A stretch of 54,765 nt of DNA from the NCBI GenBank assembly GCA_017437125.1, contig JAFSBV010000011.1:1-54765 (forward strand), given 5' to 3'. The position numbers were made by a program, and so were the translations under genes. The notes beneath the pieces are model-generated. The model made no database searches and was not told the DNA's origin. It saw nothing but the letters and a program-made list of their open reading frames with translations. Source of the DNA: Bacteroidales bacterium. Its GTDB lineage: Bacteria > Bacteroidota > Bacteroidia > Bacteroidales > UBA932. Numbering within the stretch: the first letter of the stretch is position 1; the number at the start of each line of letters is the position of its first letter. Of this stretch, positions 8,130-37,149 are shown one piece after another.

Positions 8130-10514
8130 CTACTCCTTCTTCAGCGCATCTGACGGGTTTACCCTCATCATGCGCATTGCCTGAAGGATGACCGCCGCGA
8201 TGGTGATGAGCAGTACGATCGTGAAGGCGGCGATGTAGATGAGAGGGGAGTTGTCGGTGCGGATGACGTAGCCTTCGAGCCAGCGGTCGATGACGGTATA
8301 TGCGACAGGGATTGCCACCACAGCGGAAATGATGACCGGGAGCGTGAAGTCGAAGGTGAGTCTGCAGATCATCTCGCCCTTCGAACAGCCGAATACATTG
8401 CGGACGGCATTGCTCCTTTCATTGGTCTTTGAATGGTAGCTGCTGAGTCCGACGATGGTCATTATGGTCATGAGCAGGCAGATGATGGAGAAGCCGGTCA
8501 GAAGCTTGAGTATGTTCTGCTCCTCACGGATTTCTTCTTTGAGCGAGTCTTCTAAAGTCATGATGAAGAAGAGATTATCGGTGTATCCCTTCGAATAGTA
8601 GAATTCCTTGATGTTCCTGATGGCCTCATTGACATTCCCATCTGTCTTTATGCAGATCTGCCGGCCGGTAGTGGCTTCGAAGTCATTGAACACGCAGATA
8701 CCCATGAATTTGCCCGTTGTTTCCTCCATGATACTTCCCAGCTTGATATCGGAGACAGTTCCGCATATCGGGGTGTCATACCACTGGTAATTGATCATGT
8801 TGCTGTCCATGAATTCTGAAATGCCTTCATATGTACTTTGGCAAAGATATAAGTTCTCTTTTCCGTCTGCTGCCGAAAACTCCTCAAGAAATTCAATGCC
8901 AAGTATATCGAAATATCCGCGGTCTCCTTCCAGAACTCTCAATTCCCCGGTGTTTCCGTCTTTATCCGCTATTACCGATATTCCTGTAGCATCCGGCGTG
9001 TTTATATATGAACCAAGCTTGCTTACATATGATTGGGCCTGGAGTTCATCGTGGTAGCGGTGGGTGCTCTTATCCAGGAATGAGACGAGTATGATGCCTT
9101 CCTTCTCATATCCGCGAGGCTGGTTTATCAGATGCCTTGTCTGGCGCGTGATTCCCAAACAGATGGCCAATGCACCGATGCTGAGAAGTCCTGCGATGCC
9201 TATGAACAGCTTTCCAAATACCATTCTGTCTTTGTACCTCGCTTCTCCCTTGATTACATTGATGGCGCTGTATGATGACAGCATTATTGACGGAACAGCA
9301 CTTGCCAGTCCGACCATTACGAGCATTATTGCAATCAGGACCAGATATTCGTTCAAGTGTGACAATGGGTGTATGTCCGTTCCAAGTATCTGTCCTATAG
9401 GCTCTTTGAATGCCAATGCGATAATGATCGCAAATAAGCATGACACCAGAAGAAGCGTGAAGGCCTCTGCAAGACATCTGCCGATTATTCCTCTTCTGTC
9501 TGTGCCCAGAAGCTGGCGTGTGGCTATCTCCTTGATCCTGAACCTTGAGAATGCGATGGTCAGGACCACATAGTCAAGCAGGGCCACGACTGTCAGGAAT
9601 ATGCACATGATCAGGTATATGCCGAACATTTTTCCGTTTCTGATGTTGCGGAAAAAGAAATTGACGCCCGGACTGTCCTCTTCCGAAAGCTTCTTGATAT
9701 CTTCGAATCTCGTCAGTCTGATTTCCTTGCCGGATGGATCTTCACCGGACATGTTGGGTGTCCTTCTATATTCCTCAGTCAGCTGACGGGACAGGCTTTC
9801 GATATCTGTCTCTTCCTTGACCCTCACGAAACTGATTTCGCTCATACGCAGCATCCCACAGTAATTCACCTTCTGCAGTTCCCGGAACTGGTCGATTCCT
9901 ATGATCATGTCCGGCTCGTTGAAGATTGTCTTCGGGAACGGCTTGAAAACGCCTGTGACGATCAGATTCACATCGATATCCGTCATTCCTTCGAAATATC
10001 CGCTGTAGGCGTTTCCTTCATGCAAGTGTATTTCCTTACCTATCGCATCTCCATCAGGGAAGAATGTGCCTGCCAGCTCTTCGGATATTATCACGGAATT
10101 CTTTGAAACCAATGCCTGCTTCGGATCGCCATATGACAACGGAAAGGTGAAGAAATCCAGGAAGTCTGCTTCTGCCGCTACTGTCGCGACATTGAATTCT
10201 TTATCACCATAGCTGACGATGCTCGCACCGGAAAACAGCATTTTTCCGTCATCCGGCCTTGCGAAGAATGCACATGCCTCCTCAATGTCAGGGAACTTAT
10301 CATACAGCGCGGGAACCTCAAAAGTCGAGACAATATCACCGGCACTATGGCATATATAGATATTCTCCGTGTCTTTCAGCTCCTTGTTCACACTCATATC
10401 ATCCACAATATACGAACTCAGAACTATCACAAACGCCAGCGCGAGGCTCAGTCCCACGACCTCGATCGCGGTGTACAGCTTGTTTCTCGAAAGAAATCTC
10501 AGGTAGCTTTTCAT
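8130..10514 (-). CDS. FtsX/MacB-type ABC permease P1 (last copy of the tandem array)
   Basis: A 794-residue inner-membrane permease with eight predicted TM segments: about 14-38, 296-322, 349-369, 387-412, 435-458, 670-692, 724-742 and 756-780. Two large extracytoplasmic domains lie at about 40-290 and 460-665. This is a duplicated MacB/FtsX layout (4+4 TM), so one chain may supply a whole transmembrane unit. Cytoplasmic coupling segments are visible as RFRIKEIATRQLLG (about 325-338) and NAVRNVFGC (about 702-710). The start MKSYLRFLSRNKLYTAIEV and the end DALKKE are shared with seven neighbours. Unlike them it has its own sigma-54-like promoter and activator sites just upstream (10553-10661). 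P3 is the closest relative by eye. It has no ATPase of its own and presumably uses the one at 31038-31718. Confidence 0.85.
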   Translation of the reverse strand: MKSYLRFLSRNKLYTAIEVVGLSLALAFVIVLSSYIVDDMSVNKELKDTENIYICHSAGDIVSTFEVPALYDKFPDIEEACAFFARPDDGKMLFSGASIVSYGDKEFNVATVAAEADFLDFFTFPLSYGDPKQALVSKNSVIISEELAGTFFPDGDAIGKEIHLHEGNAYSGYFEGMTDIDVNLIVTGVFKPFPKTIFNEPDMIIGIDQFRELQKVNYCGMLRMSEISFVRVKEETDIESLSRQLTEEYRRTPNMSGEDPSGKEIRLTRFEDIKKLSEEDSPGVNFFFRNIRNGKMFGIYLIMCIFLTVVALLDYVVLTIAFSRFRIKEIATRQLLGTDRRGIIGRCLAEAFTLLLVSCLFAIIIALAFKEPIGQILGTDIHPLSHLNEYLVLIAIMLVMVGLASAVPSIMLSSYSAINVIKGEARYKDRMVFGKLFIGIAGLLSIGALAICLGITRQTRHLINQPRGYEKEGIILVSFLDKSTHRYHDELQAQSYVSKLGSYINTPDATGISVIADKDGNTGELRVLEGDRGYFDILGIEFLEEFSAADGKENLYLCQSTYEGISEFMDSNMINYQWYDTPICGTVSDIKLGSIMEETTGKFMGICVFNDFEATTGRQICIKTDGNVNEAIRNIKEFYYSKGYTDNLFFIMTLEDSLKEEIREEQNILKLLTGFSIICLLMTIMTIVGLSSYHSKTNERSNAVRNVFGCSKGEMICRLTFDFTLPVIISAVVAIPVAYTVIDRWLEGYVIRTDNSPLIYIAAFTIVLLITIAAVILQAMRMMRVNPSDALKKE

Positions 10515-10552
10515 TATTCCGGTTGTTAGTGTCTGTTGTTGCTATCTTCTAT

Positions 10553-10568
10553 CCATTATTCGTGCCAA
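10553..10568 (-). promoter_or_regulatory. Sigma-54-like promoter upstream of permease P1
   Basis: Read on the minus strand: TTGGCACG (10568-10561), four bases AATA, then ATGG (10556-10553). The -24 element matches the sigma-54 consensus TTGGCACG at all eight positions. The -12 element ATGG keeps the spacing but only two of four bases of TTGC. Transcription would start near 10541, giving a UTR of about 27 nt to the start codon at 10514. The same box recurs upstream of the tolC gene. Confidence 0.6.
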
Positions 10569-10618
10569 GGTTTATAATGCTTTGGTTTATAGGTTGTTGT
10601 GTGTTTTGACCCGATACT

Positions 10619-10661
10619 GTAAAGTATAAAGAAAATTTACACTACTGTAAAGATTCTTTAC
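10619..10661. promoter_or_regulatory. Putative activator (UAS) sites for the P1 sigma-54-like promoter
   Basis: A GTAAAG-ATT-CTTTAC palindrome occupies 10647-10661, centred about 112 bp upstream of the predicted start. A half-site ACTGTAAAG begins 28 bp nearer the promoter (GTAAAG 10619-10624), and another TTTAC half lies at 10636-10640. The arrangement of paired sites at about -85 and -110 is typical of NtrC-type activators of sigma-54 promoters. The same palindrome occurs at 37150-37164. Confidence 0.55.
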
Positions 10662-10666
10662 ACATC

Positions 10667-10720
10667 TATGCCATGACCTATATCACGGCGTACAGTTTGT
10701 TTCCTAAGGTAACTGTTCAA
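10667..10720 (-). pseudogene. Decayed 5' end of an additional MKSYLR-type permease gene
   Basis: On the minus strand this stretch aligns with the first about 60 bp of the neighbouring permease genes and joins in register to the conserved leader at 10721-10740. The shared blocks are AGTTACCT and GAAACAAACTGTAC, followed by GCCGTGAT where intact copies have ACCGCGAT. The start codon has become TTG and about 11 nt are missing after AGTTACCT. Codons after LYAVI are TAG (a Glu in intact copies) and a second TAG. The rest of that gene is gone; the remnant runs directly into the GTAAAG palindromes of P1. It records the loss of at least one permease by deletion. Confidence 0.7.
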
Positions 10721-10939
10721 TTGTTAGTGCAATGTAAGTTGTTGTGTATCAACGTTTTGTTTATAAACCCTGCATGGCGAGGACGGCAGGGTTTGTTGTT
10801 AACTGCTTGTGCGATAGGATGTTGCGTTGCTCTCTGAAAGATCCTTCACTTCATTCAGGATGACAGTTGGAGCCGTTCAGAATGACAGTTGGAGCCGTTC
10901 AGGATGACGGTTTATCATCACTCCGTCCTCGACCGGGCA
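10721..10939. repeat. Permease junction element J1 (leader, hairpin, REP-like repeats)
   Basis: This is part of the 425-bp gap between P2 and P1. It holds the conserved leader (10721-10764), a hairpin with arms AAACCCTGC (10765-10773) and GCAGGGTTT (10786-10794), and three copies of a unit containing GCCGTTCAGGATGAC or TTCATTCAGGATGAC (10835-10911). The second and third units are nearly exact 22-bp direct repeats. Downstream toward P1 it joins the permease remnant and the sigma-54-like region. Confidence 0.75.
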
Positions 10940-13300
10940 TCACTCCTTCTTCAGCGCCTCTGCCGGGTTGGTACGCATCAGTCTTAGTGCCTGTATGACG
11001 ATGGACAACGCGACGATCAGCAGGACAACGACGACAGCGGTGATGTAGATCAGCGGCGAATTGCTGATACGGTAGGCATATGCCTCCAGCCAGTGTCTGA
11101 CATAGAGATATGCAGCAGGAACGGCGATAATGGCTGAAAGAAGCACAGGAGTCGAGAATCCGACAACCGTGTCACGGAATATCTGCCATTCCGAACTGCC
11201 GAATACCTTTTTTACCGCTGTGTCGCCTTCATTGGTCTTAGCATACCAGCTGCTCAGTCCGATTATGGTCATAGCTGTCATCAGGATGCTGATCAATGCA
11301 AATATGACCATAAGCTTCTGCGTGTTCCTTTCCTCTCTGAATGGTTCTACAAGCATGTCATTCAAGGTAGTGACCGTAACAAGAGTATCGTCGTACCCTT
11401 TTTCCGCATAGAATTCCCTGATGAGTCTGCAGGCCTTGTCTTCATCTATATTCACCTTTACAAGCGGGTGACACATCTGCATCCTCCAGCTGCCCGTATT
11501 AAAAATCTGTATGCCGCTCATCTGCCGTGCCCTGTTGAAGTCTTTGAGTGAGCCCATCCTGAAGTCGGAGCACATTCCGCTGAGGGGAGTCTTGCCGTCA
11601 AGGAATTCCAGCGTATTGTCCGTGATGAATGAGGGATTTGCCGTATATGATCCCTCGCAGATGTATATTTCCGCGTCTGACCTGTTGCTGAAGTCAGCTG
11701 TGATCTCAATACCGAGGATGTCGAATGCTTCTCTGTCTCCTCCGTTGGTATATAGCCATCTTGATCCGCCGTCCAGACCTCTGCAATGGCGGCTCGATGT
11801 TCCACGAACATACATTGGCGGACCTGTGATACTGCCGACAGCATCAACATAGCTCTGGCTTTTGAGCTCATCGATATATTGATTGATCCTTCTGCCGTTC
11901 TTATCGTTGTAAGTGTTGAATCGTGCAAAAAGGATATTGTCGGTCTCATAGCCTAACGGCTGGTTGAGCATATGCCTTGTCTGAAGCGTTATTCCGAGGC
12001 ATACGGCGACTCCGATGATGCTGAGTGCGCCTGAAATGCCGATGAATATCTTCCCATATGTCATCTTGTCCTGATATTTTGCCTCGCCTTTGAGCACTTC
12101 GATAGGCTTGTATGATGAAATGACGATCGATGGGACGGAACTCGCCATGGTTGCCATCAATGCTATGATTCCTGCCATTATGATGAATTCGCCGTTCTGC
12201 CTGAACAGCCTGAGTTCGCTGCCGAGTATCTCGCCGATCTGTCCTTTCAGAGCATATGCGATGAGGATGGAGAAGATGAATGAAGCAATAAGAAGGAAAA
12301 GTGATTCAGCCATACATCTGAATATGACGGCCTTGCGCTCAGTGCCGAGAAGCCTGCGGGTCGCGATTTCCTTCAGCCTGAATCGTGAGAACGCCATTGT
12401 GAGGACTATGTAGTCCAGGAGGGCTATCAGGACTATGAACAGGCACATGATGATATATGTACCGAGCATGTCGCTTTTCCTGATATTGTCGAAGTACATG
12501 CTGAATGTTTCATAGCTCTGGCTGCGGATATCTTTGAACGGCACGGTATGAACCTTAAAATCATCGTCATCACCGGACATGTCCTCGAATCTCTCCTTTA
12601 TCACTCCGGTTAAAGCTTCTCCTGCGTCTGTGTGGCTTTCTCCTTCATGAAGTTTCATGAAACATGTGGATGCCTGTTCCGTATTATTGTAGATCGGCAG
12701 CGATGAGTATCTGTCGAATGAGAACAGCACATCATTCTTTCTGAATATGCTTTTGCTGATGTCCTTGTATATTCCGGTTACCGTAAGATCCAGATCTATG
12801 AACCTCATATCTGTCAGTTTCAGAGTCTTTCCGACAGCATTTCCTTCCGGGAAGAGAACATTTGCCAGTCTCTCCGATATCACGGCACCGTTCATAGACT
12901 CAAAGACCTTGTCCGGATCTCCTTCTGTCAAAGGAAATGTCATGATCTTGAAGAAGTTGTCTGATACTGCAGCAGCATCTACGTACTGTTCTCCGTATTC
13001 GCTTCCAGCCCTAAGCAGATTCTCGAAGAATGTCTTGTTCATGCTCTGCATATACCAGCACAGGTCTTCTACCGCAGGGAGTTCTCGACCGATCTCCATA
13101 AACTGGTCATACATCATAGGAACATCGTACATCTCTGTCAGACAGATTCTGTCTTTGTCCTTTATATCCTTGTCGCAGCTCAGATCATCAACTATATAAC
13201 TGCTCAAAAGTATCACAAATGCCAGTGCTATGCTCAGACCCACCACCTCGATCGCGGTGTAGAGCTTGTTTCTTGATAGGAATCTCAGGTAACTTTTCAT
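10940..13300 (-). CDS. FtsX/MacB-type ABC permease P2
   Basis: A 786-residue paralogue of the array. I place the start at 13300, where MKSYLRFLSRNK begins as in every other copy; the ORF runs 11 codons further upstream into the shared leader. It has eight TM segments in the same positions as P1, with two extracytoplasmic domains that differ strongly from P1 (for example MYDVPMMYDQFMEIGRELP early in the first). The coupling segments are RFRLKEIATRRLLG and DTAVKKVFGSS. It ends TNPAEALKKE. It belongs with P1, P3, P6 and P8, which share the VLTMAFSRFR-like motif. Expression is presumably as part of the long minus-strand transcript; the junction to P1 carries a hairpin. Substrate unknown. Confidence 0.85.
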   Translation of the reverse strand: MKSYLRFLSRNKLYTAIEVVGLSIALAFVILLSSYIVDDLSCDKDIKDKDRICLTEMYDVPMMYDQFMEIGRELPAVEDLCWYMQSMNKTFFENLLRAGSEYGEQYVDAAAVSDNFFKIMTFPLTEGDPDKVFESMNGAVISERLANVLFPEGNAVGKTLKLTDMRFIDLDLTVTGIYKDISKSIFRKNDVLFSFDRYSSLPIYNNTEQASTCFMKLHEGESHTDAGEALTGVIKERFEDMSGDDDDFKVHTVPFKDIRSQSYETFSMYFDNIRKSDMLGTYIIMCLFIVLIALLDYIVLTMAFSRFRLKEIATRRLLGTERKAVIFRCMAESLFLLIASFIFSILIAYALKGQIGEILGSELRLFRQNGEFIIMAGIIALMATMASSVPSIVISSYKPIEVLKGEAKYQDKMTYGKIFIGISGALSIIGVAVCLGITLQTRHMLNQPLGYETDNILFARFNTYNDKNGRRINQYIDELKSQSYVDAVGSITGPPMYVRGTSSRHCRGLDGGSRWLYTNGGDREAFDILGIEITADFSNRSDAEIYICEGSYTANPSFITDNTLEFLDGKTPLSGMCSDFRMGSLKDFNRARQMSGIQIFNTGSWRMQMCHPLVKVNIDEDKACRLIREFYAEKGYDDTLVTVTTLNDMLVEPFREERNTQKLMVIFALISILMTAMTIIGLSSWYAKTNEGDTAVKKVFGSSEWQIFRDTVVGFSTPVLLSAIIAVPAAYLYVRHWLEAYAYRISNSPLIYITAVVVVLLIVALSIVIQALRLMRTNPAEALKKE

Positions 13301-13476
13301 TTTGTTGGTGCAATTTAAGTTGTTGTGTGTCAATGTTTTATTCGTTAACCCTGCATGGCGGAGAAGGCAGGGTTGGATGTTAATTGTCTGTGCGCCAAGG
13401 AGTTGCGTTGCTCTTTGAAAGATTCTTCACTTCGTTCAGGATGACAGTTGAAGCCGTTCAGGATGACGGTTTATCA
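13301..13476. repeat. Permease junction element J2 (REP-type)
   Basis: The gap between P3 and P2. It contains the conserved leader, a hairpin AACCCTGC (13347-13354) / GCAGGGTT (13367-13374) with a 12-nt loop, and REP-like units at 13414-13468 containing TTCGTTCAGGATGAC and GCCGTTCAGGATGAC. No run of T follows the hairpin on the transcribed strand, so complete termination is unlikely. Confidence 0.75.
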
Positions 13477-15857
13477 TCACTCCTTCTTCAGCGCCTCGGC
13501 CGGGTTGGTGCGGGCGGCGCGGAGGGCCTGGAGGGCGACAGCGGCGAGAGCAACGGCAAGTACGACCGCGAAGGCTCCGATGTAGATGAGAGGGGAGTTT
13601 TCGGTGCGGATGACGTAGCCCTCCAGCCAGCGGCCGATGACAGTATATGCAATCGGGATTGCCACGACAGCGAAATGACCACCGGAAGCGTGAAATCGAG
13701 GGTGATCTTGCGGATCATCTCCTTCCTCGAGCATCCGAACACATTACGCACAGCATTGTCCTTCTCGCCGGTCTTCGCGTGATAGCTGCTGAGTCCGACT
13801 ATGGTCATAATGGTCATCAGGATGCATATGAGAGAGAATCCGCTCAGGAGCTTGAGCATATTCTTTTCCTCCATTATTTCTTTTTCCACGATTTCGCGTA
13901 GGGTGGATACGATGAACATATTGTCGTCATATCCCTTGCTTCTATAGAAATCATATATCTCCTGCTTTGCCTTGTTCTCATTTATGTTCACCTTTGCCAC
14001 AGGGTAGGCGTACTGAATCCATTCCGGCATATCTATCACATTGATGAATGCATTCTTGCTGTATGCATTTTCTTTCACCAGTCCTATCTTTATGTCACTG
14101 ATTATACCGCCAAGAGGGTCTGGGTGAAAGAAATTCAGCATTCCGTCAGTCATATACTGTGATATCCCTTCCTTGGAACTTTTGCATATATACCACTTGC
14201 CGTCTTCGCTCATAGTGGTTCCCTGCCCATAGTCCTCAAGGATTTCGACTCCTATCATTTCAAAGAAAGAGCTGTTTCCGTCGATAAATGCGACATTTTC
14301 ATATCTGCCTGTCGTATTGTCTCTTAATCCTGTCATTATCCAGCTTGTAGGCAATGATGTCGTTGCTCCTACCTTTTCCACAAACGGAAGCGACTCCAGT
14401 TCTTCGAAGAATCGGTTGTCTTCCGTAATGAATTCCGTGTATATCATATCGTCGTATTCATATCCTAATGGCTGGTTGATCAGGTGCAGTGTCTGGAGTG
14501 TCACTCCGAAGCATACTGACAATGCACCGATGCTGAGCAGACCTGCGAGACCGATGAATACCTTGCCGAATGTGACCTTGTCCTTATATCTTGCCTCGCC
14601 TTTGATCACATTGACCGCGCTGTAGGACGAAAGAATCAATGAAGGAACGGCGCTGGCTATTGTGACCATTATCACGATGATGCCGGCCAATATCAGGTAC
14701 TCGTTCAGTTGGGACAGAGGATTGATTTCTGCGCCGAGAATCTGACCGATAGTGTCCTTGAATGCAAGAGCAATTATCACCGCGAAAATACAGGATATAG
14801 CCAGCAGTATGAATGCTTCCGCAAAACAGCGGCCGATTATGCCCTTACGGTCTGTGCCCAGTAGCTGACGCGTCGCTATCTCCTTGATCCTGAATCTGCT
14901 GAAGGCAATGGTGAGCACGATGTAATCAAGCAGGGAAACGATGGCTATGAATATGCACATAAGAAGGTATATCCCGAAGAGTCTGCCTTGGCGGATATTG
15001 TCGAAATGATAACCGAATGTCTGCGGGTCCTGTTTCTTGATATCATCAAACGGTGTCAGTACAAGCTCCATCTTGAAGGAATCCGGATCATAATTCCTTG
15101 CCACCTTCTTGAATTCAGTGGTGAGGGTGCTGCAGAGGCTGTGAGGGTCTGCCTCTTTGTCCAGCTTTACAAAACTATATTCAGCGATTCTCATTCCGCC
15201 TCCGAACAGTGATTCCTGTTTCTCGAAAATGAGGTCGAGGTTCATTATTATGTCCGGCTCGATGAATACGGTACGCGAAAATGGTTTGAAGATGCCCGTG
15301 ACGGTCAGATTCACGTTTAGATCCTCCACCGGTTCGTCAGACCATTGCCAGAAAGGATTCCTCTCAAATACATTGATTTCCTTACCGAGTGCGTCCCCGT
15401 CAGGGAAGAGTGTGTTTGCCATCTCTTCTGATATCACAACGCTGTACTTCGATGACAATGCATTTTCCGGATCGCCTTCCAGCAAAGGGAATGTGAAGAA
15501 GTCAAAGAAGGTGTCTGATGCTCCCAGGATTTTAGCATTCATTTTTGTGTCTCCATAGCTTACGATGGTCAGGTCGTCGAACAAAGATGGATTTCTGCCG
15601 CTATGTACCATGCCGCAGGAACTCTTTATCTCCGGCATAGTTTCATATAATGCCGGTACCTCGCTAAAGCAATCCGAACGCTCCAGGCCGTGAACCATAT
15701 ATACATCATCAGTATTCTTCAATACCTTGTTCACGCTCATATCGTTCACGATGTATGAGCTCAAAACAATCACGAATGCCAATGCCAGGCTTAATCCCAC
15801 GACCTCGATCGCGGTGTAGAGCTTGTTTCTTGATAGGAATCTCAGGTAGCTTTTCAT
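13477..15857 (-). pseudogene. FtsX/MacB-type ABC permease P3, 1-nt frameshift near the 3' end
   Basis: An otherwise typical copy starting at MKSYLRFLSRNK (15857) with the family TM pattern and RFRIKEIATRQLLGTDRKG. After DFTLPVVIS (about residue 730) the frame is lost. Compared with P1, one base of a GG pair on the + strand is missing near 13672 (P1 GCGGAAAT, P3 GCGAAAT). As written the protein reads SLSWQSRLH... and ends at 13488 without TM7-TM8. Restoring one base gives AVVAIPIAYTVIGRWLEGY, a normal TM8 and the family ending TNPAEALKKE, stopping at 13477 (793 residues). Either a true inactivating or programmed shift, or a sequencing error. P3 is the closest paralogue of P1, so function may be backed up. 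Confidence 0.8.
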
Positions 15858-16032
15858 TTTGTTGTGCAATGTAAGTTGTTGTGTGTCAATGTTTTATTTG
15901 TTAACCCTGCATGGCGGAGAAGGCAGGGTTGATTGTTAATCGCCTGTACTATAAGGAGTTGCGTTGCTCTTTGAAAGATCCTTCACTGCGTTCAGGATGA
16001 CAGTTGAAGCCGTTCAGGATGACAGTTTAGCA
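15858..16032. repeat. Permease junction element J3 (REP-type)
   Basis: The gap between P4 and P3: conserved leader, hairpin AACCCTGC (15903-15910) / GCAGGGTT (15923-15930), then REP-like units with TTCAGGATGAC at 15970-16026. Confidence 0.75.
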
Positions 16033-20826: not shown

Positions 20827-21002
20827 TTTATTGGTGCAATGTAAGTTGTTGTGTGTCAATGTTTTGTTTGTAAACCCTGCATGGCGGGGAAGGCAGGGTT
20901 GGCTGTTAATCGCCTGTGCTATAAGGAGTTGCGTTGCTCTCTGAAAGATCCTTCACTTCATTCTGGATGACAGTTGAAGCCGTTCAGGATGACAGTTGGA
21001 TA
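20827..21002. repeat. Permease junction element J5 (REP-type)
   Basis: The gap between P6 and P5: conserved leader, hairpin AACCCTGC (20873-20880) / GCAGGGTT (20893-20900), REP-like units at 20941-20998 (TTCATTCTGGATGAC, then GCCGTTCAGGATGAC). Confidence 0.75.
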
Positions 21003-25826: not shown

Positions 25827-26023
25827 TTTATTGGTGCAATGTAAGTTGTTGTGTATCAGTATTTTGCTTGTAAACCCTGCATGGCGAGGAAGGCAGGGTT
25901 GGCTGCTAATCGCTTGTGCGCCAAGAGGTTGTGTTGCTCTCTGAAAGATCCTTCACTTCGTTCAGGATGACAGTTGGAGCCGTTCAGGATGACGGTTTAA
26001 CGTCATGCCGGCGCTGCCTGGCA
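25827..26023. repeat. Permease junction element J7 (REP-type)
   Basis: The gap between P8 and P7: conserved leader, hairpin AACCCTGC (25873-25880) / GCAGGGTT (25893-25900), REP-like units at 25941-25994, then a short unique stretch before the P8 stop. Confidence 0.75.
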
Positions 26024-28577: not shown

Positions 28578-30992
28578 TCACTCCGTCTTCAATGCGTCTG
28601 CCGGGTCGGCATTAGCGGCGCTCCAGCTTCGAAGAACTACAACGCTGACCGTCACCGCCATCACAGCGACGAGCGCAAGGGCGAACACCCACCAATAAAT
28701 CGGACAACGGTGTGCGAATGTGGCAAGGTAGCGGTCCACGATGATCCAGCTCATCGGCGCAGCTACGGCAAAGCATACAAGCACGATCTTCACGAATCTG
28801 CTGCTGAACATTTCCAGTATGTCGCGGACGGTAGCACCGTTGACGCGACGCAAGGCTATCTCCCTGCGGCGGTACTGTGTCTCGAACATCACCAGTCCGA
28901 ACACTCCCATCAATGAAATGATGATCGCTACGAGTGTGAACAGGCTTATGAGCTGCGAAAGTGACTGCTCTTTCTTATATATGTAGTTGATGTTCTCGTC
29001 AAAGAACATGATGTTCCATTCGTCTGGAGATACGCTTCCGTTCCATCTGCTCAAGACTGTTCCGATATGGCTCATTACAGACTTATAGTCAGCATCTGCC
29101 GCTACTCGGATGAATGCCGTGCCGAGCTGCCACCAAGGATCGTTTCCGAATATATAAAGTGCAAAAGGGGCGACTTCTTCCTTCAATGTCGTGAAGCTGA
29201 AGTCTTCGCAGAATCCTGCGATTTCAGCATCGTCCTTATGTCCGCTTACCTTGTCTTCCAGAGTCATCCCGTATTGTCTGCGTGCAGTCTCATTGAAGAT
29301 GAACACACCGTTTTCGCTGTTGTGGTCCGACTCTCGGAATGTACGGCCTTCAGTTATGTCTATCTCCATGAACTCCGGAAAATCATATGCTACCGGGTAA
29401 CATTGGAAATTGATGACATCTCCTTTCCAGTCGCGTCCCCAACCCATTCTCTCGGTTGCCAGCAGATTACCTGCCGCCCAGGTCACATCAATGATCTGCG
29501 GATTGCTCTTAAGACTTTCTTCCACCGCCTCGGCATTCGCCCCGATATAATCTCCTGCACGGACAAAAAGCAGCTGCTCTTTATTGAAGCCCATATCGTA
29601 ATTTACCATATATCTTCGCTGGAGGGATATGAATGAGGTGCAGACTATCAGGATGATGGATATGGTGAATTGAAGTCCGACAAGAATATACCGGAGTCTC
29701 TGGCCGGCCTTTGTGGCACCGAATGATCCTTTTAACACCATTGCCGGTTCGAATGATGTGATGTAGAGGGCGGGGTAGAGACTTGAGACGATTGAAACCA
29801 GAAATGCAATCAGGATTGTTGTTGCAGTCACTCCGATATTTGCCTTGAATGCGCTGTCTGCAGAAATCAGATGAGTCAGCTGGCTCATGTTGAACAGCAT
29901 CACGAATGCGAAAGCAAGAACTAAAGCTATTCCGATAAGCGTTATGCTTTCTGCCAGTGTGCTTATGATGAGTTCGCGACGGGTGCAGCCGAGGACCTTC
30001 TTTGTGTTGACAGCTCTTATGCGCTCGGGGATCTGCGCAAAGAAGAAGTTGATGTAATTGATGAAGGCGATGCCTACGATGAGAATCGCAACGATCAGAA
30101 GTATGATTGTAGTTGTCCTGTTTCCGTGTTCCAGAGGCATGTTGATCTCGTCTGTGAAATATAGTTCTTCCACAGAAAAGAGACTTGGCCTTGCTCTCTC
30201 GGTAAATTCCTTCAGGACCTCATCCACCTCTTCCTGGGTCATTCCCAATTCTTCCGGAGATTGAATGTCCTTGAAGAGAAGGTCCTTATAGCATTTTCCA
30301 GTAGTAGCATACATCTGCTCTTCAGTTGCCTCTATTTCTTCAGGATCATATACCTTGACGAAATAGTTATATCCCCATTCGGACACATTGTCGATGCCTT
30401 TGTCCCCGATATTCCTCAGAATTTCCAAATCGCCGAAATGAGAGTTCTGCGGCATGTTCTTGAATATCACGGCGACGGTGCATATGTCATCTCCCTGACC
30501 TAATCTCGATCCGACTTCCAGTCCGAACCTCTCCGCTGTCTTTTCGCTTAAAGCCAGAGCGTGATAATCGATGACATCGTCAAAAGAGCCTGCCACGGCC
30601 TCGAAACCGAAATCATCAAGTCGTTTTCCGCTGAAATCAATTACATGAATATTTACTGTGCGTCTTTCGCCTTCAGGGTCGATCATGAAGCTTTGGGTCT
30701 GCAGATTCGTCAGACGTATCATCACGTAACTCTCTACATTTGGGGATGCCTGAAGAGCGGTTTCGGCCATAGGCCTGTTGTAGTACATGCTTTTCTTTCC
30801 CTCAATCTGCCAGTCGTCAGCTCCCAGGACATAGACCCTCTCCGAATCCTTGATGCCCTTGTTGAAGTTCAGGTCGTAATCCACCTGAACCAGAATGATA
30901 TAGAATGCAGCAAAGGCGACCGCCATACCGAGCACATTGAGTATGCCCGACATGGCCGATCCGCCGCGTCTGAATATTTTGAATGATGCCAT
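28578..30992 (-). CDS. FtsX/MacB-type ABC permease P9 (divergent)
   Basis: An 804-residue permease of the same overall build (TM near the N-terminus, two extracytoplasmic domains, 8 TM in total). Its N-terminus is different (MASFKIFRRGGSAMSGIL) and its ending ADPADALKTE is only distantly similar. The coupling segments are PERIRAVNTKKVLGCTRRE and REIALRRVNGATVRDI, close to the general Bacteroidetes 'ABC transporter permease' FtsX/MacB group. It lies directly downstream of the ATPase gene (45-nt gap), so ATPase plus P9 and/or P10 could be the founding transporter, with the MKSYLR copies added later. This ordering is inference. Confidence 0.83.
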   Translation of the reverse strand: MASFKIFRRGGSAMSGILNVLGMAVAFAAFYIILVQVDYDLNFNKGIKDSERVYVLGADDWQIEGKKSMYYNRPMAETALQASPNVESYVMIRLTNLQTQSFMIDPEGERRTVNIHVIDFSGKRLDDFGFEAVAGSFDDVIDYHALALSEKTAERFGLEVGSRLGQGDDICTVAVIFKNMPQNSHFGDLEILRNIGDKGIDNVSEWGYNYFVKVYDPEEIEATEEQMYATTGKCYKDLLFKDIQSPEELGMTQEEVDEVLKEFTERARPSLFSVEELYFTDEINMPLEHGNRTTTIILLIVAILIVGIAFINYINFFFAQIPERIRAVNTKKVLGCTRRELIISTLAESITLIGIALVLAFAFVMLFNMSQLTHLISADSAFKANIGVTATTILIAFLVSIVSSLYPALYITSFEPAMVLKGSFGATKAGQRLRYILVGLQFTISIILIVCTSFISLQRRYMVNYDMGFNKEQLLFVRAGDYIGANAEAVEESLKSNPQIIDVTWAAGNLLATERMGWGRDWKGDVINFQCYPVAYDFPEFMEIDITEGRTFRESDHNSENGVFIFNETARRQYGMTLEDKVSGHKDDAEIAGFCEDFSFTTLKEEVAPFALYIFGNDPWWQLGTAFIRVAADADYKSVMSHIGTVLSRWNGSVSPDEWNIMFFDENINYIYKKEQSLSQLISLFTLVAIIISLMGVFGLVMFETQYRRREIALRRVNGATVRDILEMFSSRFVKIVLVCFAVAAPMSWIIVDRYLATFAHRCPIYWWVFALALVAVMAVTVSVVVLRSWSAANADPADALKTE

Positions 30993-31037
30993 TTGTAAGT
31001 TGTTATAGGGTTATTTCGTGTCTATTTGCGTTGGTTA

Positions 31038-31718
31038 TTACAGTTCGTTCTTTACATCGCTGACGATCTCACCGTCGAAGAGGTTCACGACTCTCTGTGC
31101 GCATGAAGCGTCTTTCTGCGAGTGAGTCACCATAACGATCGTAGTGCCTTCCTTGTTAAGTTCTGTGAGGAGGTCCATGACTTCCTTGCCGTTCTTCGAG
31201 TCGAGGTTACCGGTAGGCTCATCGGCGAGGATAAGCTTCGGATTCGATACTACAGCACGGGCGATTGCGACACGCTGCTGCTGACCACCGGAGAGCTGCT
31301 GAGGGAAGTGCTGTGCTCTGTGGCTGATGTTCATACGCTTGAGCATCTCTGTGACGCGCTGCTTACGCTCTGATGCGCTGATGTTGAGATAACGGAGGGG
31401 GAGTTCCACGTTCTCGAACACATTGAGCTCGTCGATGAGGTTGAAGCTCTGGAATACGAATCCGATGTTTCCTTTGCGGAACTTGGTGCGGTCCTTCTCC
31501 TTGAGCTTTGCAACTTCCTGTCCGAGAAGCATATAGCTTCCGTCTGTAGGGTTGTCAAGAAGTCCGAGGATGTTCAGGAGAGTTGACTTGCCGCATCCTG
31601 AAGGACCCATGATGGCTACGAATTCGCCGTCTTTGATTTCAAATGAAACCTTGTTAAGTGCTGTTGTCTCGATTTCCTCTGTACGGAAAACCTTGCAAAG
31701 ATCTGTTACTGTAATCAT
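31038..31718 (-). CDS. ABC transporter ATPase, MacB/LolD type
   Basis: A 226-residue cytoplasmic ATPase with every canonical motif: Walker [12 protein letters not shown] (about 38-48), Q-loop [12 protein letters not shown], signature [14 protein letters not shown] (about 142-155), Walker [14 protein letters not shown] and the switch His in MVTHSQ. The NLDS and FNLI wording is typical of the MacB/LolD/FtsE branch, which powers mechanotransmission by FtsX-type permeases rather than substrate passage through the membrane. It is the only ABC-export ATPase in the locus, set among ten permease genes. It lies 33 nt downstream of P10 and 45 nt upstream of P9. It is expected to work as a homodimer under one 8-TM permease at a time. 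Confidence 0.93.
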
Positions 31719-31751
31719 GATGTTTTGTATTTAAATTGTTAATGATATTAT

Positions 31752-34094
31752 TTATTCATTTTTCAACGACTCCACCGGATTGCTGCGGGAGATGCGCAGG
31801 CAGTTCATTATTACTGCCCCTATGATGAGTGTCATGACGATGATGTCCGCCGCAAGGAAGTACCATGGAGTCAGCGTTATCTTCTCTGCGAACTGCCGGA
31901 GCCATCCGCCGGCCGCCAGCCATGCACCGATATCTCCGATTATGACGGCAATGATGATAAGCTTGAATACATCCTTTATGAATATGTTCATTATCTCATT
32001 TGTCGATGCGCCGTTTATCTTCCTGACTGCCATCTCCTTGCTTCTGCGAACCGATTCGTCGCGGATATATCCGATAAGTCCGAAGAGGGCGATGAGCACG
32101 GAGAATATGCATCCGATCATGATGGTGTTCTTCATCTTCCTGTCTTCCGAATAGAGGCCTCTGATCTCTTCTTTGAATGAGACTATCTCCAGTCTTCTGT
32201 CGGGATAGAGTTCGTCCACTATCTGTTGTAGTCTTCTGATGATGTCCTGATTGACATTGTCCAGCTTTATCATCACTATAGGCATATTGTACGAGTCACC
32301 GTTGTTTCCATCCATCCAGAACTTGACACTCGGACGCGGGTCAGAGGCATTCATAGTGCCGATCCTGTAGTTTTCATATACTCCGCTGATGGTGAATACC
32401 TGGTCGTCAGTCTGGCTGTGTTCTGTGATGAGGACCTGCTTGCCGACAGCTCCGTCGCTCCAGTCCTCGAAATCCATCATCTTCTCCACAAAGCTTCGGC
32501 TTACTGCGACTTCATTTGCGGTACGAGGCGCTCTTCCGTCTATGAACGGTATCTCAAGGATTTCAAAGAATCCGTCGGTTCCTTCATACTGGTCTGCGAC
32601 GTTGAAGAGTTCCTTATACTGGCCTCCTTCCATGCTGAATATATTGTTGCCGCTTGCCCCTCCGGCAGGGAAACCATAACTTCTCTCAATGTCAATGACT
32701 TCCGGCATCCCTTTTATCTTTTCAATGAACCTGTTTATGTCGCTGCTTGCCATGCTGTCGAAACTGCATCCGACCAGATTCTCGAATTCATATCCCGGAT
32801 CATCGTTCATCGCCTTCTGATACTGCTTCGCAATCACGAGCATCATTGCTACCAGGAATACGTTTATCACAAACTGGACGAGCAGAAGCGCCTTCTTCCA
32901 GTTCCTGCGGTTCTCCTTATAGTTCTTCAGTGCCGCAGACACAGGGATCTTTACGTACAGATATCCCGGGACAATGGCTGAGACCATGAATATCAGAATG
33001 CATACAATTGTAAGTTTTATGATTGTCTGTGGAATCATAAGACCGATCAGGCTTACGCCGAGCAGATTCTCAATCACAGGCTTTGCAGCATATATGATCG
33101 CCGCTGCCACGATAAGCGACAGTCCCATGTTGACGGCAGTCTCTTTGAAAAGCACGCCGTAGATGTTGATGCCTTCGGCTCCATATGCCTTTCTGACTCC
33201 GACTTCTTTTGAGCGCTTCACTATCGCTGATATGGCTATGAGCACATAATTCATTACTGATATCGCGAGCAGAAGGAATGCTACAAGAGAAAGAATGAAC
33301 ATCATGTTCCTTGTATGCGGGTCAGATGTGTGGATGGTGCTGAATGGCCTGAGGGTGTACCATAGCTTCATTCCCATAGCCTCATACTCCTCAATATCCT
33401 GATGGGTTTCCTGCATGAGCCTCATAGCGTCTTTCAAGGATGCAGGATCCACTCCTTCATGCAGTTTCACGAATCCTCTGTACCTGTCATTTCCCATCCA
33501 GTTTTCAGTACTCTGCTTTGAGTATGTCTCCATTGAAATCAGCACATCGTAGGGGATTGTGCCGTTCTCCGGAAAGTCTTCATATACTCCGTTTATGGTA
33601 GCCAGAAGTTCAGGCATCTGGATGTTGCAGATCTGTTTTCCGATGATATTGTCGAATCCTCCCATCTTTTCGGCAAACGAACGGCTTACCATGATGGAAT
33701 GGATTTCTCCTAACGCTTTTTTCGGATCACCTGCCAGTATCTCCCTGTCAAATACATCGAAGAAGCAGGTGTCTGCGAAATTGGAGAATCCTTCGACTTC
33801 ATGTCCATCCTGATCTCTCCATATGTGCTGCTCGAAGAATCCTGTCATTCTTGTGGCAGACTCCACTCCCGGTGCGTACTGTCTGATGCCTGGTGCAATC
33901 GCTCCGCTGCACTGATTGAAATCGAATTCATCCTGTCCCTGGACGGCATTGCTGTATATCCAATATATCCTGTCAACGTCTTTGTAGAAGCCGTCATAGC
34001 TCATCTCGAAGCATACCTTGGCGATCAGGACCATTCCTATCGCCAGTCCCGTGCCGAGAGACAACGCCTTTATTATTGTTTCTTTTATCTTCAT
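31752..34094 (-). CDS. FtsX/MacB-type ABC permease P10
   Basis: A 780-residue permease directly after the adaptor gene. The N-terminus MKIKETIIKALSLGTGLAIG leads into TM1. The coupling segments are VKRSKEVGVRKAYGAEG and RRSKEMAVRKINGAST, and it ends RSNPVESLKNE. It has eight TM segments by hydrophobicity. It is unlike the MKSYLR copies at both ends, but its 5' leader (34095-34140, GTGCAACGTATGTTGCTG) is recognisably related to theirs. With the TolC, HlyD and ATPase genes it makes a complete tripartite MacAB-TolC-like set. Substrate unknown. Confidence 0.85.
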   Translation of the reverse strand: MKIKETIIKALSLGTGLAIGMVLIAKVCFEMSYDGFYKDVDRIYWIYSNAVQGQDEFDFNQCSGAIAPGIRQYAPGVESATRMTGFFEQHIWRDQDGHEVEGFSNFADTCFFDVFDREILAGDPKKALGEIHSIMVSRSFAEKMGGFDNIIGKQICNIQMPELLATINGVYEDFPENGTIPYDVLISMETYSKQSTENWMGNDRYRGFVKLHEGVDPASLKDAMRLMQETHQDIEEYEAMGMKLWYTLRPFSTIHTSDPHTRNMMFILSLVAFLLLAISVMNYVLIAISAIVKRSKEVGVRKAYGAEGINIYGVLFKETAVNMGLSLIVAAAIIYAAKPVIENLLGVSLIGLMIPQTIIKLTIVCILIFMVSAIVPGYLYVKIPVSAALKNYKENRRNWKKALLLVQFVINVFLVAMMLVIAKQYQKAMNDDPGYEFENLVGCSFDSMASSDINRFIEKIKGMPEVIDIERSYGFPAGGASGNNIFSMEGGQYKELFNVADQYEGTDGFFEILEIPFIDGRAPRTANEVAVSRSFVEKMMDFEDWSDGAVGKQVLITEHSQTDDQVFTISGVYENYRIGTMNASDPRPSVKFWMDGNNGDSYNMPIVMIKLDNVNQDIIRRLQQIVDELYPDRRLEIVSFKEEIRGLYSEDRKMKNTIMIGCIFSVLIALFGLIGYIRDESVRRSKEMAVRKINGASTNEIMNIFIKDVFKLIIIAVIIGDIGAWLAAGGWLRQFAEKITLTPWYFLAADIIVMTLIIGAVIMNCLRISRSNPVESLKNE

Positions 34095-34236
34095 TTTTAT
34101 GAGTGCAACGTATGTTGCTGATTTTTAATTAGTTCTTGCTGAACCCTGCCTTCCTTTTCATGCAGGGTTTGGGTGTAAAGTGTTGATAGTTAGTGATTTG
34201 TGTTGCTCTAATTTTGGAGGCCGTCGGATTATGGAT
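34095..34236. repeat. Junction element upstream of P10, with inverted hairpin loop
   Basis: The gap between the adaptor and P10. It holds a leader related to those of the array and a hairpin AACCCTGC (34142-34149) / GCAGGGTT (34162-34169). Here the 12-nt loop reads CTTCCTTTTCAT on the + strand, whereas in J1-J8 the + strand loop starts ATGGCG and ends AG or CG. The loop is thus in the opposite orientation. A TGTTGCTCT block (34201-34209) also matches the other junctions. Confidence 0.65.
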
Positions 34237-35493
34237 TCAGAAGACAAGCACCTCGTTGTCGCCGAAGTTGTCGTAGCCGGAGGTTATGACCTTTTCGCCT
34301 GGCTCGAGTCCTTCGAGGACTTCATAGAACTGCGGGTTCTGACGGCCGATGCGGATTTCGCGGCGCACTGCCTTTCCACCTTCCGGAGAGACTACATATA
34401 TCCATTTTCCTCCTGTCTTCTGATAGAAAGTGCCGCGAGGGATGAGGACTGCGCTTTCCGGTTGGCCGAGCTGGAGATTCAGATAGTAGGTCTGACCTGT
34501 CCTGATGTTCGACGGCTGCTCTCCGCTGAATCTGAAGTCTGCCTGGAACTTTCCGCTGCGTACTTCCGGATATACCTTGCGGATGACTGCATCATATGTC
34601 TCGTTCTGACGCTCGAATGTGGCGGTAAGACCTGATGAAACCCTGTCGATGTAATGCTCGTCTATCATTGCTTCTATCTTGAAGCTGCCAGTAGCATTGA
34701 TCTGGCCGATCTTCATTCCGCTGCCGATGGACTGTCCAAGAACTACTTCAAGGAGTCCGAGTTCACCGTCGATCGGAGCCTTGACTGCCAGGTTCTCCTT
34801 TCTCTTGCGTATCCTCTGCATGTTGATCTTCATGTTTTCGAGGCTTTCCTCCATCTGCTTGATCTGTACGCCTCTGTACATGCTGTCCTGTTCGGCACGG
34901 GCCAATGTGACCTCAAGCTTCTTACAGAAAAGCACATAATCCTCTTCTGAACGCAGGTACTCTTCCTTGCCGATGAGCCCGTCATCAAAAAGCCTCTTCT
35001 GAGACTCCAGAGCACGTCCCTTCCTCTTCACCTCCGTCTGAAGCTCGAGGATGTTGAGACTGAGCTGCATCTTCTCCTGCTCCATCTGGATCATAGTGTT
35101 TCGGAGCGCGTTCTCCTTCTCTGCGAGGTTTGCTTCCGAGTTGAGGATCTCAAGGTCGAGGTCATCGTTGCTCAGGCGGACGATCACATCACCGGCCTTT
35201 ACTTCATTTCCTTCCTCACATACGATCTCTTCAACGATGCCGGTCTCTCGGGGACTTACCTGGATCGTGGTCATCGGCTGTACCTGTCCGCTTATGCGGA
35301 TATAATCGTTGAATTCGCCGGCCTTCACCTCACTGATCGAAAGTGTCTCGCCATTGACGCGGAGGGTGCTTGCGTCGTCGCGGAATATAAGCCAAAGTAT
35401 GAATATGGCCATGAAGCCGCCGAACCAGTAGGGCAGTGCCTTCTTGCTGAATACGAGGGCGATGCCCTTCTTTTTCTCTAATACTCTATCCAT
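34237..35493 (-). CDS. Periplasmic adaptor (HlyD/RND-type membrane fusion protein)
   Basis: A 418-residue membrane-anchored adaptor. An N-terminal TM (about 22-40; WFGGFMAIFILWLIF) is followed by a biotinyl-lipoyl half (about 60-110; VSPRETGIVEEIVCEEGNEV), then a long coiled-coil hairpin rich in Glu, Lys and Leu (about 115-235). The second lipoyl half contains KAPIDGELGLLEVVLGQSI, and a beta-barrel/membrane-proximal domain ends VITSGYDNFGDNEVLVF. This is the MacA/HlyD role: bridging the inner-membrane permease to the outer-membrane TolC duct. It lies between tolC (60-nt gap) and P10. A single copy presumably serves all ten permeases. Confidence 0.9.
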   Translation of the reverse strand: MDRVLEKKKGIALVFSKKALPYWFGGFMAIFILWLIFRDDASTLRVNGETLSISEVKAGEFNDYIRISGQVQPMTTIQVSPRETGIVEEIVCEEGNEVKAGDVIVRLSNDDLDLEILNSEANLAEKENALRNTMIQMEQEKMQLSLNILELQTEVKRKGRALESQKRLFDDGLIGKEEYLRSEEDYVLFCKKLEVTLARAEQDSMYRGVQIKQMEESLENMKINMQRIRKRKENLAVKAPIDGELGLLEVVLGQSIGSGMKIGQINATGSFKIEAMIDEHYIDRVSSGLTATFERQNETYDAVIRKVYPEVRSGKFQADFRFSGEQPSNIRTGQTYYLNLQLGQPESAVLIPRGTFYQKTGGKWIYVVSPEGGKAVRREIRIGRQNPQFYEVLEGLEPGEKVITSGYDNFGDNEVLVF

Positions 35494-35553
35494 TGTTGTT
35501 TAGTTTTTTTTCGGGTTGGAATATTCTGTCATGCTGAACTTTCATTTAAAGAT

Positions 35554-37026
35554 CTATGGAATCATTTCGGTTACGTTGATTTCCAGGTCTCTGCCCTTGA
35601 TGAAATCGTAGAGAGTGCATTGGCGGAGCTGGTAATAGAATGTCCAGAAGTTGCTGACATCGCTTATGTATTGTCTTATGGCGCTGTCGTTTTCAGTCTG
35701 AGCCATGTTGAGGTCGGTTACCGTGGCGTTTCCTTCGCGGAAACGGTGCATGGTCAGCTCATATCGTTCTGATGCGACCTGCATGGCTTTTCTTGAGACC
35801 ATGCACTGCTGTCTCTGGTTGTTGAACTGGCTGACAGCAGTGAAGACCTGTCTTCTGAAGTCGTTTTCCGACTGCTGTACCTGAGCCCTGACGACTTCCT
35901 GTGCCGCTTTGGCCTTCTGCACCTTTCCTTTGCCGAGTCCCCAGTCGAAGATAGGAATGCTGAATGTTATGCCGACAACTTCCTGATCAAGAAGGTTCTT
36001 GTATGCCTGCGGGAATTCCGGACCTGTCTGCGACAATCCGAATCGTGCATTCAAGGCGAATGAAAAGCCTCTGGATGCCTTGGCATGGGCTACCGAGGAT
36101 TCTGCATTCAGCAGGCTGAGTTCGTTGTTTAGGCTGAAGCTGGAATTTGAAAGGGATTTCTCCATCACGATGTCATAATCCATCTGCACATCAGGAAGTT
36201 CCTCCTCGATTACCGGAACAACTTCAAATGATTCGTCGAGACCGAGGATGGAGTTCAGGCTCATCTGGGCCTCTCTGACCGCAACGGCAGTCTCATTTAT
36301 GGAAATGCTGTCGTTAAGCATTCTGAGTTCCATCTGAAGGTACTCCGCACGTGTGACATCTCCCAGCTGAAGCCTTTCCTTTGCGATCCTGAGCATGTTT
36401 CCGGAATTCTCGAAATTGCTCTTGCTGATATTGTTGTTCATCTGGGCCAGAAGGAGATTGTGATATGCATAGACGGCATTGATGGTGATTCCTTCCATTG
36501 ATTCCAGATAATTCCTCTTGCCTTTTTCATATTCCTTAGGCTCGATCTTCTTGTCCCATTTGAACTGATTGTACGAGAAGAGCGGCTGGTAGTACGAAAC
36601 GGTTATAGGTCTTGAATACCAGGTGAGGCTCCTGTTGCTTCCGAACTGGTCTATGCGCGAAAGATCTGAGAATACAGAGAGAGTTCCTCCGGTGAATGTG
36701 ATGTTCTGGTTCATCTGCAGACCGATGCCGTTCTGGAGATTGTTGGAACTGACATATTTCAATGTTCCGTCGTCAGGATTCTGAAGGAGTGTCAGTGAAC
36801 GGTCGAAGTTCATGATGTCACCCTGAAGATAGAAGGAAGGAAGACGGCTTGCCTTGTATGAACGATATGCCCAGTAAGTTGAAACGAAAGCCTGCTTGGC
36901 TTCAAGCGCAGCTACCGATCTTGTGCGTGCCGTATGTATCGCTTCGGACAAGGTCATTTCTTCCTGTGCCGAAACAGGCAGAGCAGCGAGGAGGATGGCA
37001 ATTGTTGTTATTATCCGGTTTTTCAT
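35554..37026 (-). CDS. TolC-family outer-membrane efflux protein
   Basis: A 490-residue outer-membrane duct. I set the start at 37026 because MKNRIITTIAILLAALPVSA is a signal peptide and the sigma-54-like promoter lies just upstream (37078-37093). The longer frame from 37107 would begin upstream of that promoter. The sequence is a duplicated helical-hairpin/beta pattern: long coiled-coil helices (for example ALEAKQAFVSTYWAYRSYKA, MLRIAKERLQLGDVTRAEYL and the matching second-half RYELTMHRFREGNATVTDLN). This internal repeat is diagnostic of TolC-type proteins. It is first in the export operon, followed by adaptor, permease and ATPase. Confidence 0.9.
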   Translation of the reverse strand: MKNRIITTIAILLAALPVSAQEEMTLSEAIHTARTRSVAALEAKQAFVSTYWAYRSYKASRLPSFYLQGDIMNFDRSLTLLQNPDDGTLKYVSSNNLQNGIGLQMNQNITFTGGTLSVFSDLSRIDQFGSNRSLTWYSRPITVSYYQPLFSYNQFKWDKKIEPKEYEKGKRNYLESMEGITINAVYAYHNLLLAQMNNNISKSNFENSGNMLRIAKERLQLGDVTRAEYLQMELRMLNDSISINETAVAVREAQMSLNSILGLDESFEVVPVIEEELPDVQMDYDIVMEKSLSNSSFSLNNELSLLNAESSVAHAKASRGFSFALNARFGLSQTGPEFPQAYKNLLDQEVVGITFSIPIFDWGLGKGKVQKAKAAQEVVRAQVQQSENDFRRQVFTAVSQFNNQRQQCMVSRKAMQVASERYELTMHRFREGNATVTDLNMAQTENDSAIRQYISDVSNFWTFYYQLRQCTLYDFIKGRDLEINVTEMIP

Positions 37027-37077
37027 GTTTATTATATAATAATAAAGCTGTTTTACTTTGGTTTTGCCGGAAATAGA

Positions 37078-37093: not shown

Positions 37094-37149
37094 ACTTTGC
37101 AATACATTGATAATCAATGTTTTACATAAAATAGCTACAAGGGCGTAGT

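Follow-up and report, generated by a model that had tools for sequence, protein, structure and literature searches.

A permease array around a single ATPase in a Bacteroidales genome: a probable sigma54-regulated exporter of the MacB class

We describe a cluster of ten MacB/FtsX-type permease genes, P1 to P10, gathered around a single ATP-binding cassette (ABC) ATPase gene in a Bacteroidales bacterium (GenBank assembly GCA_017437125.1). The window, that is, the whole stretch of 54,765 nucleotides (nt) that was analysed, is contig JAFSBV010000011.1 (C3 below) of one genome bin of 2.8 Mb in 99 contigs, 91% complete. All genes of the locus are on the minus strand and run tolC, adaptor, P10, ATPase, P9, P8 and so on to P1. 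We conclude that the locus probably encodes a sigma54/NtrC-regulated tripartite ABC exporter of the MacB (type VII) class, in which single-chain permeases would work on a common base. A broader proposal, to which we give a little less than an even chance, is that this is a modular exporter with one base for many exchangeable permeases, that the array is a growing and shrinking store of cassettes whose bodies are swapped between species, and that the NtrC/sigma54 regulon also recruits permeases encoded elsewhere.

Components of the locus

The initial annotation had placed ten permeases beside a single ATPase, a single adaptor and a single TolC-like gene, and our searches bear this out: the open reading frames (ORFs) are present, and Pfam and profile matches identify ten double MacB/FtsX permeases, one ABC ATPase, one adaptor of the HlyD/MacA type and one TolC-like gene. 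The end it gave for the locus, 37026, is the likely real start codon of tolC. All ten permeases score above the Pfam cut-off for FtsX (PF02687) and nine of them above that for MacB_PCD (PF12704), the exception being P4 with 25.8 against a cut-off of 27, which places them in the MacB/FtsX (type VII) ABC superfamily. Eight transmembrane (TM) helices had been assigned to every permease; a 19-residue hydropathy scan gave eight peaks in eight of the ten, with seven in P4 and six in P3. Reading frames are intact in nine. In P3 (13480-15869) the frame changes near the 3' end, a change that looks the same in the assembly whether it is a frameshift or an assembly error. Among solved structures, the nearest to the permeases is 3is6, which covers 244 residues of a 'putative permease protein' and aligns with their first periplasmic domain (E 7.7e-35); MacB chains rank after it.

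The ATPase carries a complete set of motifs, which we take to be Walker A, Q-loop, LSGGQ, Walker B and H-loop, and the solved chains that match it are YbbA and LolD. It is the only ATPase of the array type in its genome, where at least two more permeases of the same family lie outside the window, on contigs C49 and C82. The genome holds 22 other ATPase-domain matches, and extra permeases might in principle be powered by some of these, as LolD- or FtsE-like ATPases. We consider this very improbable: none of the 22 exceeds 44% identity to the array ATPase or lies on C49 or C82, and the array ATPase type and the permease family travel together in other genomes (see below).

Contig C49 is short (G000:C49:1-3560, G000 being the genome described here) and holds one full and one partial permease of the family; it is perhaps a piece of a second array.

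Permeases and ATPases in related genomes

Other genomes of the order are given G numbers here and the loci of relatives L numbers. The closest relatives of the ATPase, up to 98% identical, are found in Bacteroidales bins, many with herbivore gut as their stated origin, and bins of 'Candidatus Cryptobacteroides' reach 91%. Bacteroidota plasmids carry related ATPases as well, with at least eight plasmid records at 60% identity or more among the matches listed. One array-type ATPase of a relative (L067; G013:C1:186615-187286) shows a single in-frame TAA.

We counted permease frames of at least 250 residues within up to 10 kb on each side of the ATPase in 80 relatives' loci. Two or more permeases were found in 70 loci, three or more in 39, five or more in nine, and none in two; two ATPases were found in just one. 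In the 58 loci where the adaptor was in reach as well as the ATPase, the two enclosed no permease in 13, one in 35, two in nine and three in one. Several permeases near one ATPase of the array type are the norm among the nearest relatives, and ten is extreme. The earlier view of the locus as exceptional was in this respect too strong.

Twelve genomes were searched whole for permeases (E <= 1e-15, fragments counted). Matches numbered 14 in the genome described here, 3 in G016, 16 in G023, 5 each in G065, G119 and G148, 14 in G180, 4 in G198 (one of full length), 28 in G201, 9 in G204, 10 in G208 and 2 in G216. Among the best 14 ATPase candidates per genome, those at E <= 1e-70 numbered one in our genome and in G065, G119, G148, G204 and G216, two in G180 and G198, three in G201 and four in G208. 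Permeases outnumber ATPases (28 to 3 in G201, 9 to 1 in G204, and 5 to 1 in the single-contig genome G148). G204 is a close parallel, with one ATPase amid nine permeases in 29 kb. Repeated spacers could mislead the assembly of such an array; ours is credible because long arrays also occur in G204 and G228.

We also measured co-occurrence in 198 genomes of the order, by presence only, since part of the search scored no more than five candidates per genome. The ATPase was called present at E <= 1e-70 and the permease present at a profile E <= 1e-15, or strongly present with a best E below 1e-50. The permease profile matched in 124 genomes (113 strongly, 11 weakly) and the ATPase in 113. Both were present in 110, a strong permease alone in three, the ATPase alone in three (G054, G153 and G173, with a weak permease match in G054) and neither in 82, giving a Fisher p = 7e-48, a value weakened as support by a strong/weak line chosen after inspection of the list and by a count that treats related genomes as independent. 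In other words, permease family and ATPase are found apart in 6 of the 116 genomes with either.

Conservation of the permeases

In P1-P8, conservation is higher in the segments that should face the ATPase than in the periplasmic domains: the N-terminal helix with TM1 is 80% identical, the C-tail 53% and the first coupling loop 49%, against 22-23% for the periplasmic domains and 26-38% for the membrane helices. Three residues, Y315, R326 and G337, are invariant in all ten permeases and fall in the expected loop, as located by hydropathy only. The ratio of nonsynonymous to synonymous substitution (dN/dS) is about 0.10 for P5 and P8, which indicates that both genes are under purifying selection; their periplasmic parts have a higher dN than their membrane parts.

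An alternative that we regard as unlikely is that the ATPase serves P9 and P10 only, while P1-P8 and the C82 copy are co-regulated, ATPase-free periplasmic receptors or binding proteins. P9 and P10 are indeed separate subtypes with cytosolic loops unlike those of P1-P8, and 'orphan' duplicated permeases have been annotated in 28 and 33 copies in two Dyadobacter genomes (PMC11573002). However, residues of the first coupling loop and C-tail are kept in P1-P8, permeases of the P1-P8 kind (A-type) adjoin the ATPase in relatives, for example in L149, L155 and L163, and family and ATPase are rarely found apart.

A shared operator and sigma54-like promoters

Two copies of the palindrome TGTAAAG-N3-CTTTACA stand in the window, one upstream of tolC and one upstream of P1, while 100 shuffles contained no copy. 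In the whole 2.8 Mb genome there are exactly three exact sites, while the reversed-pattern control gave none. The third is found upstream of the C82 permease, which is not linked to the array. After this permease come first a response regulator, made up of receiver, sigma54-activation and Fis domains, and then a histidine kinase; the regulator and kinase share 70% and 64% identity with the pair at the end of a Parabacteroides faecalis array (strain AGMB00274, L149). The putative operator ties the C82 permease, which has no ATPase neighbour, to the operon with the one ATPase.

In 85 relatives' loci we found 30 exact sites, against none for eight shuffled palindromes. Up to 450 nt downstream of 23 of them begins a tolC-like frame (12, eight of these recognised only by position ahead of the adaptor), a permease frame (8) or an ATPase frame (3); seven sites have no such frame. 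These loci were selected around the export system, and the unbiased searches are those of whole genomes: twelve genomes gave ten exact sites, three in our own, four in G204, two in G023 and one in G198. All four sites in G204 lie within the span of the array, two directly ahead of a permease and two in the interval that follows the ATPase, and one of the two in G023 is on the contig of the array.

We scanned downstream of 26 sites (23 of relatives and our three) for the best match to a TGGCAC-N5-TTGC-like promoter. The match lay at +53 to +56 from the operator in 19 cases, at +75 to +78 in six and at +86 in one. It agreed with at least 8 of 10 consensus positions at 21 of the 26 sites, against 1.1 expected, and with 7 at the other five; our own three promoters each agree at 8. 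The 26 sites are not independent, as some are near-copies and two sites in L189 share one promoter. In sequence terms, what is found here is what a sigma54 regulon under an enhancer-binding protein (EBP) would be predicted to hold, a -24/-12 element at fixed distance from a palindrome together with an NtrC-type activator. A published survey (PMC12316311) reports that sigma54 promoters are enriched for FtsX-type permeases (COG0577) in several classes, Bacteroidia among them, and the sigma54-like promoters of the array fit this enrichment. Consensus searches for sigma70 promoters and terminators gave the same counts as in shuffles.

Constant ends and old bodies

The initial annotation regarded P1-P8 as eight tandem paralogues. 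They share constant ends, but their bodies are old and belong to separate lineages. In the protein alignment identity falls from 97% over the first 30 columns to 27% over the next 30; in DNA, the first 87 nt are 82-95% identical and the bodies 55-66%. Over the 21 pairs among P2-P8, mean identity is 88% (81-97) in the 116 nt upstream, 89% (84-95) in the first 87 nt and 57% (55-61) in the rest, and the leader of P1 differs, at 51-55% identity to the others. We compared the genes with their closest outside copies, eight in other genomes and one on C49, excluding a partial copy of P1 from the range for bodies: here identity is 66-86% in the bodies and 48-59% upstream, where shuffled sequences give 54% (59% in the highest of 40). 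For P4, P5 and P7 the constant ends comprise about 80 nt of 3' coding sequence, a spacer of about 150 nt and 87 nt of 5' coding sequence.

Simple tandem duplication was rejected as the origin of P1-P8, given the contrast between bodies (55-66%) and P2-P8 spacers (81-97%), and is further disfavoured by closer bodies in relatives for P1, P3, P5, P6, P7 and P8. P2 and P4 are little nearer to their best outside matches than to their paralogues in the window. A midpoint-rooted tree of 221 permeases was built without the duplicate loci L061-L067, L100 and L101 and without frames shorter than 700 residues; in it 84 descendants trace back to the common ancestor of P1-P8, and P1-P3 form one younger group with a gene of L108. 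Among 20 loci with at least two A-type permeases, upstream pairs above 80% occur only in the window, L146 and L120, while in all 20 the first 87 nt, averaging 65-93%, are more alike than the bodies (55-60%). Extensive sharing of spacers is, on these comparisons, a feature of few loci, and conservation of gene starts is general.

P5 is a mosaic that passes from array-like to L108-like at 87 nt into the gene and is array-like again at its 3' end. Synonymous divergence (dS) from L108 is 0.62 for P5, 0.55 for the ATPase, 2.0 for TolC and 1.7 for the adaptor, values near 2 being close to saturation; the adaptor comparison with L118 was left out. On the simplest reading, the P5 body swap would be younger than tolC and adaptor. 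In L108 itself, partial permease matches (G226:C18:177638-179095 and 216026-217081; profile 1-464 and 428-774) lie about 37 kb apart, and could be one gene split by a large inserted element or two separate remnants.

Eight copies of the shared spacer were found, one between every neighbouring pair from P9 to P1. They contain a terminator-like hairpin, AACCCTGC-N12-GCAGGGTT, exact in six and with one mismatch in two. The hairpin is dispersed, with 23 sites in the genome (window 34142-34169 and 45036-45063 among them) against none for the reversed-pattern control, and we assign it no special role; the spacer as a folded RNA element was rejected, since the predicted fold of the 134-nt spacer is no more stable than those of shuffled sequences (z 0.30). 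A decayed permease start, the ghost cassette of Table 1, aligns with a score of 79, against 39.5 for the highest of 500 shuffles.

Old bodies within constant ends and the ghost start could also mean that the array is mainly a reservoir of variation, in which bodies are recombined between constant ends and strongly expressed only next to promoters. The terminator-like hairpin and the separate operator and promoter of P1 point the same way, as does the low dS of the P5 body beside those of TolC and the adaptor, though that of the ATPase is equally low. We hold this to be a rather improbable account of the array: nine intact frames and the dN/dS of P5 and P8 speak for genes in use rather than in storage, the window genes that were scanned include no recognisable recombinase, and the folding result gives no support to a strong terminator.

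Weighing a shared ATPase

Several observations weigh against use of one ATPase by all of the permeases. Permeases are matched strongly in G035, G150 and G177, where no ATPase reaches the cut-off. In P1-P8 the second coupling loop is just 32% identical, within the range of the membrane helices, and the N- and C-terminal likeness of P1-P8 may come in part from the constant ends, which makes the first coupling loop the cleaner sign of a common ATPase. In that first loop P9 and P10 match P1-P8 at just 26%, so that one common dock for the ATPase is not obvious. As for the regulon, contig C53 of our genome holds two operator-like sites with one mismatch, eight of the twelve genomes have no exact operator, and the site in G198 is far from the array of that genome. 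Finally, the bin is 91% complete. The initial annotation had held that dedicated ATPase genes elsewhere in the genome would speak against sharing; none was seen, no ATPase match lying on C49 or C82, though C49 is too short for the neighbours of its permease to show.

Its central claim, that the permeases share one ATPase, is retained in part, on indirect evidence. The single ATPase type, the co-occurrence, the operator link to C82, the conservation of ATPase-facing segments and the selection on P5 and P8 speak for it; the P9/P10 cytosolic loops and the second coupling loop, no better conserved than the membrane average, do not.

Comparison with known systems

Shared ATPases are known for importers, the ECF group II importers being a further parallel, while MacB-class exporters usually have one permease set per ATPase. 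That arrangement is also the one drawn for MacB-class exporters in a published account (PMC5985334). Another (PMC7658222) describes MsmX, a multitask ATPase of sugar importers that energises several membrane units; unlike the array, MsmX-type systems are importers with binding proteins and belong to another ABC type. Among the open-access papers searched, a set that lacks most subscription papers, none was found to describe permeases of the double MacB/FtsX family as an array or as users of a shared ATPase.

The darobactin exporter DarBCD (NF038007/8/10) resembles the array in its separate ATPase, single-chain double permease and adaptor. It has a single DarB, and a linked precursor peptide and radical SAM enzyme. 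The array has ten permeases, and neither a precursor peptide nor a radical SAM enzyme was recognised among the window genes scanned, no search being aimed at peptides. DarD and DarC are the best NCBIfam matches of ATPase and adaptor, but the proteins fall below all three equivalog cut-offs (DarD 292.7 of 375, DarC 199.2 of 450, DarB 19-72 of 700), which rules out membership.

MacAB-TolC shares MacB_PCD and FtsX domains, an adaptor and a TolC-like duct with the array, but the array ATPase is a separate gene rather than fused and its permease is a fused double unit. YbbAP and LolCDE have one permease set per ATPase and are not known to have a TolC-like partner; their ATPases are separate, and the YbbA and LolD chains match that of the array. 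YbbP is described in PMC5985334 as a fusion of two MacB units with two extra linking TM helices, which the array permeases would lack, judged by hydropathy only (eight peaks in eight of ten, fewer in two). ADOP (TIGR03434) is the best NCBIfam match for all ten permeases and likewise comprises duplicated permeases in large paralogous sets, but the array scores 77.6-192.5 bits against a cut-off of 622.3. By the description of that model, ADOP has no associated ATPase gene; the array has one, and its ATPase type is present in 110 of 113 strong-permease genomes.

Proposed mechanism

The common base would consist of one ATPase dimer, one adaptor and one TolC-like duct. Each single-chain permease, with two MacB-like halves, 4+4 TM helices and two periplasmic domains, would be a complete membrane unit and bring its own periplasmic specificity, and permeases would share or alternate on the same ATPase and adaptor. 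As described for MacB and its kin in PMC5985334, ATP is used to move periplasmic domains; by such mechanotransmission the system would push periplasmic peptides or other amphiphiles through the duct. The array may gain and swap permease bodies by homologous recombination in the constant ends. We infer a shared base with exchangeable specificity parts from segment conservation, purifying selection and this MacB mechanism.

Table 1. Coordinates of predicted features in the window
Feature	Position	Strand	Evidence
P1, double MacB/FtsX permease; has an operator and a sigma54-like promoter of its own	8130..10514	-	ORF, Pfam, motif scan
P1 sigma54-like promoter, 8/10 consensus positions, +78 nt from operator	10553..10567	-	
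Operator TGTAAAG-N3-CTTTACA upstream of P1	10646..10662	.	pattern search
Decayed permease-gene start (ghost cassette) after a spacer copy	10669..10740	-	alignment
P2 permease	10940..13333	-	ORF, Pfam
P3 permease, C-terminal ~60 residues out of frame in assembly	13488..15869	-	Pfam, frame comparison
P4 permease	16033..18309	-	ORF, Pfam
P5 permease; body 86% (nt) identical to L108 gene, upstream spacer not	18463..20859	-	sequence comparison
P6 permease; 77% amino acid identity to second copy on C49	21003..23345	-	Pfam, comparison
P7 permease	23499..25826	-	ORF, Pfam
One of eight shared spacers, with hairpin AACCCTGC-N12-GCAGGGTT	25827..26023	-	
P8 permease; body 79% identical (amino acid) to L118 gene	26024..28381	-	Pfam, comparison
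P9 permease, separate subtype, adjoins ATPase	28578..30992	-	Pfam, comparison
Single DarD/LolD/MacB-type ATPase, complete motif set	31038..31718	-	profile and motif scan
P10 permease, third subtype, between adaptor and ATPase	31752..34094	-	Pfam, comparison
Periplasmic adaptor (HlyD/RND-MFP; DarC-like below cut-off)	34237..35493	-	profile scan
TolC-like outer-membrane factor (OEP), likely start codon at 37026	35554..37107	-	profile scan
tolC sigma54-like -24/-12 promoter, 8/10 consensus positions, +56 nt from operator	37078..37092	-	
Operator TGTAAAG-N3-CTTTACA upstream of tolC	37149..37165	.	pattern search

Neighbouring genes

Divergent from tolC (window 37227-39182) are a sigma70-family gene, similar to those of extracytoplasmic function (ECF) sigma factors, a small protein with one TM helix and a lipoprotein-like protein of unknown family. 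After P1 on the same strand (window 2111-8058) follow an outer-membrane beta-barrel gene and two genes for TlpA-like thioredoxins. We rejected all of these as parts of the system, as relatives' loci gave little support: the sigma gene was matched at L111 and L125, a TlpA-like frame inside L122 and the outer-membrane protein in L092 only.

Significance

If one base does serve many permeases, this would give a simple account of why Bacteroidota carry such large sets of 'orphan' FtsX permeases, whose substrates could then be tested by deleting one ATPase. The operator and sigma54-like promoters provide a handle for finding members of the system in a genome, unlinked ones included.

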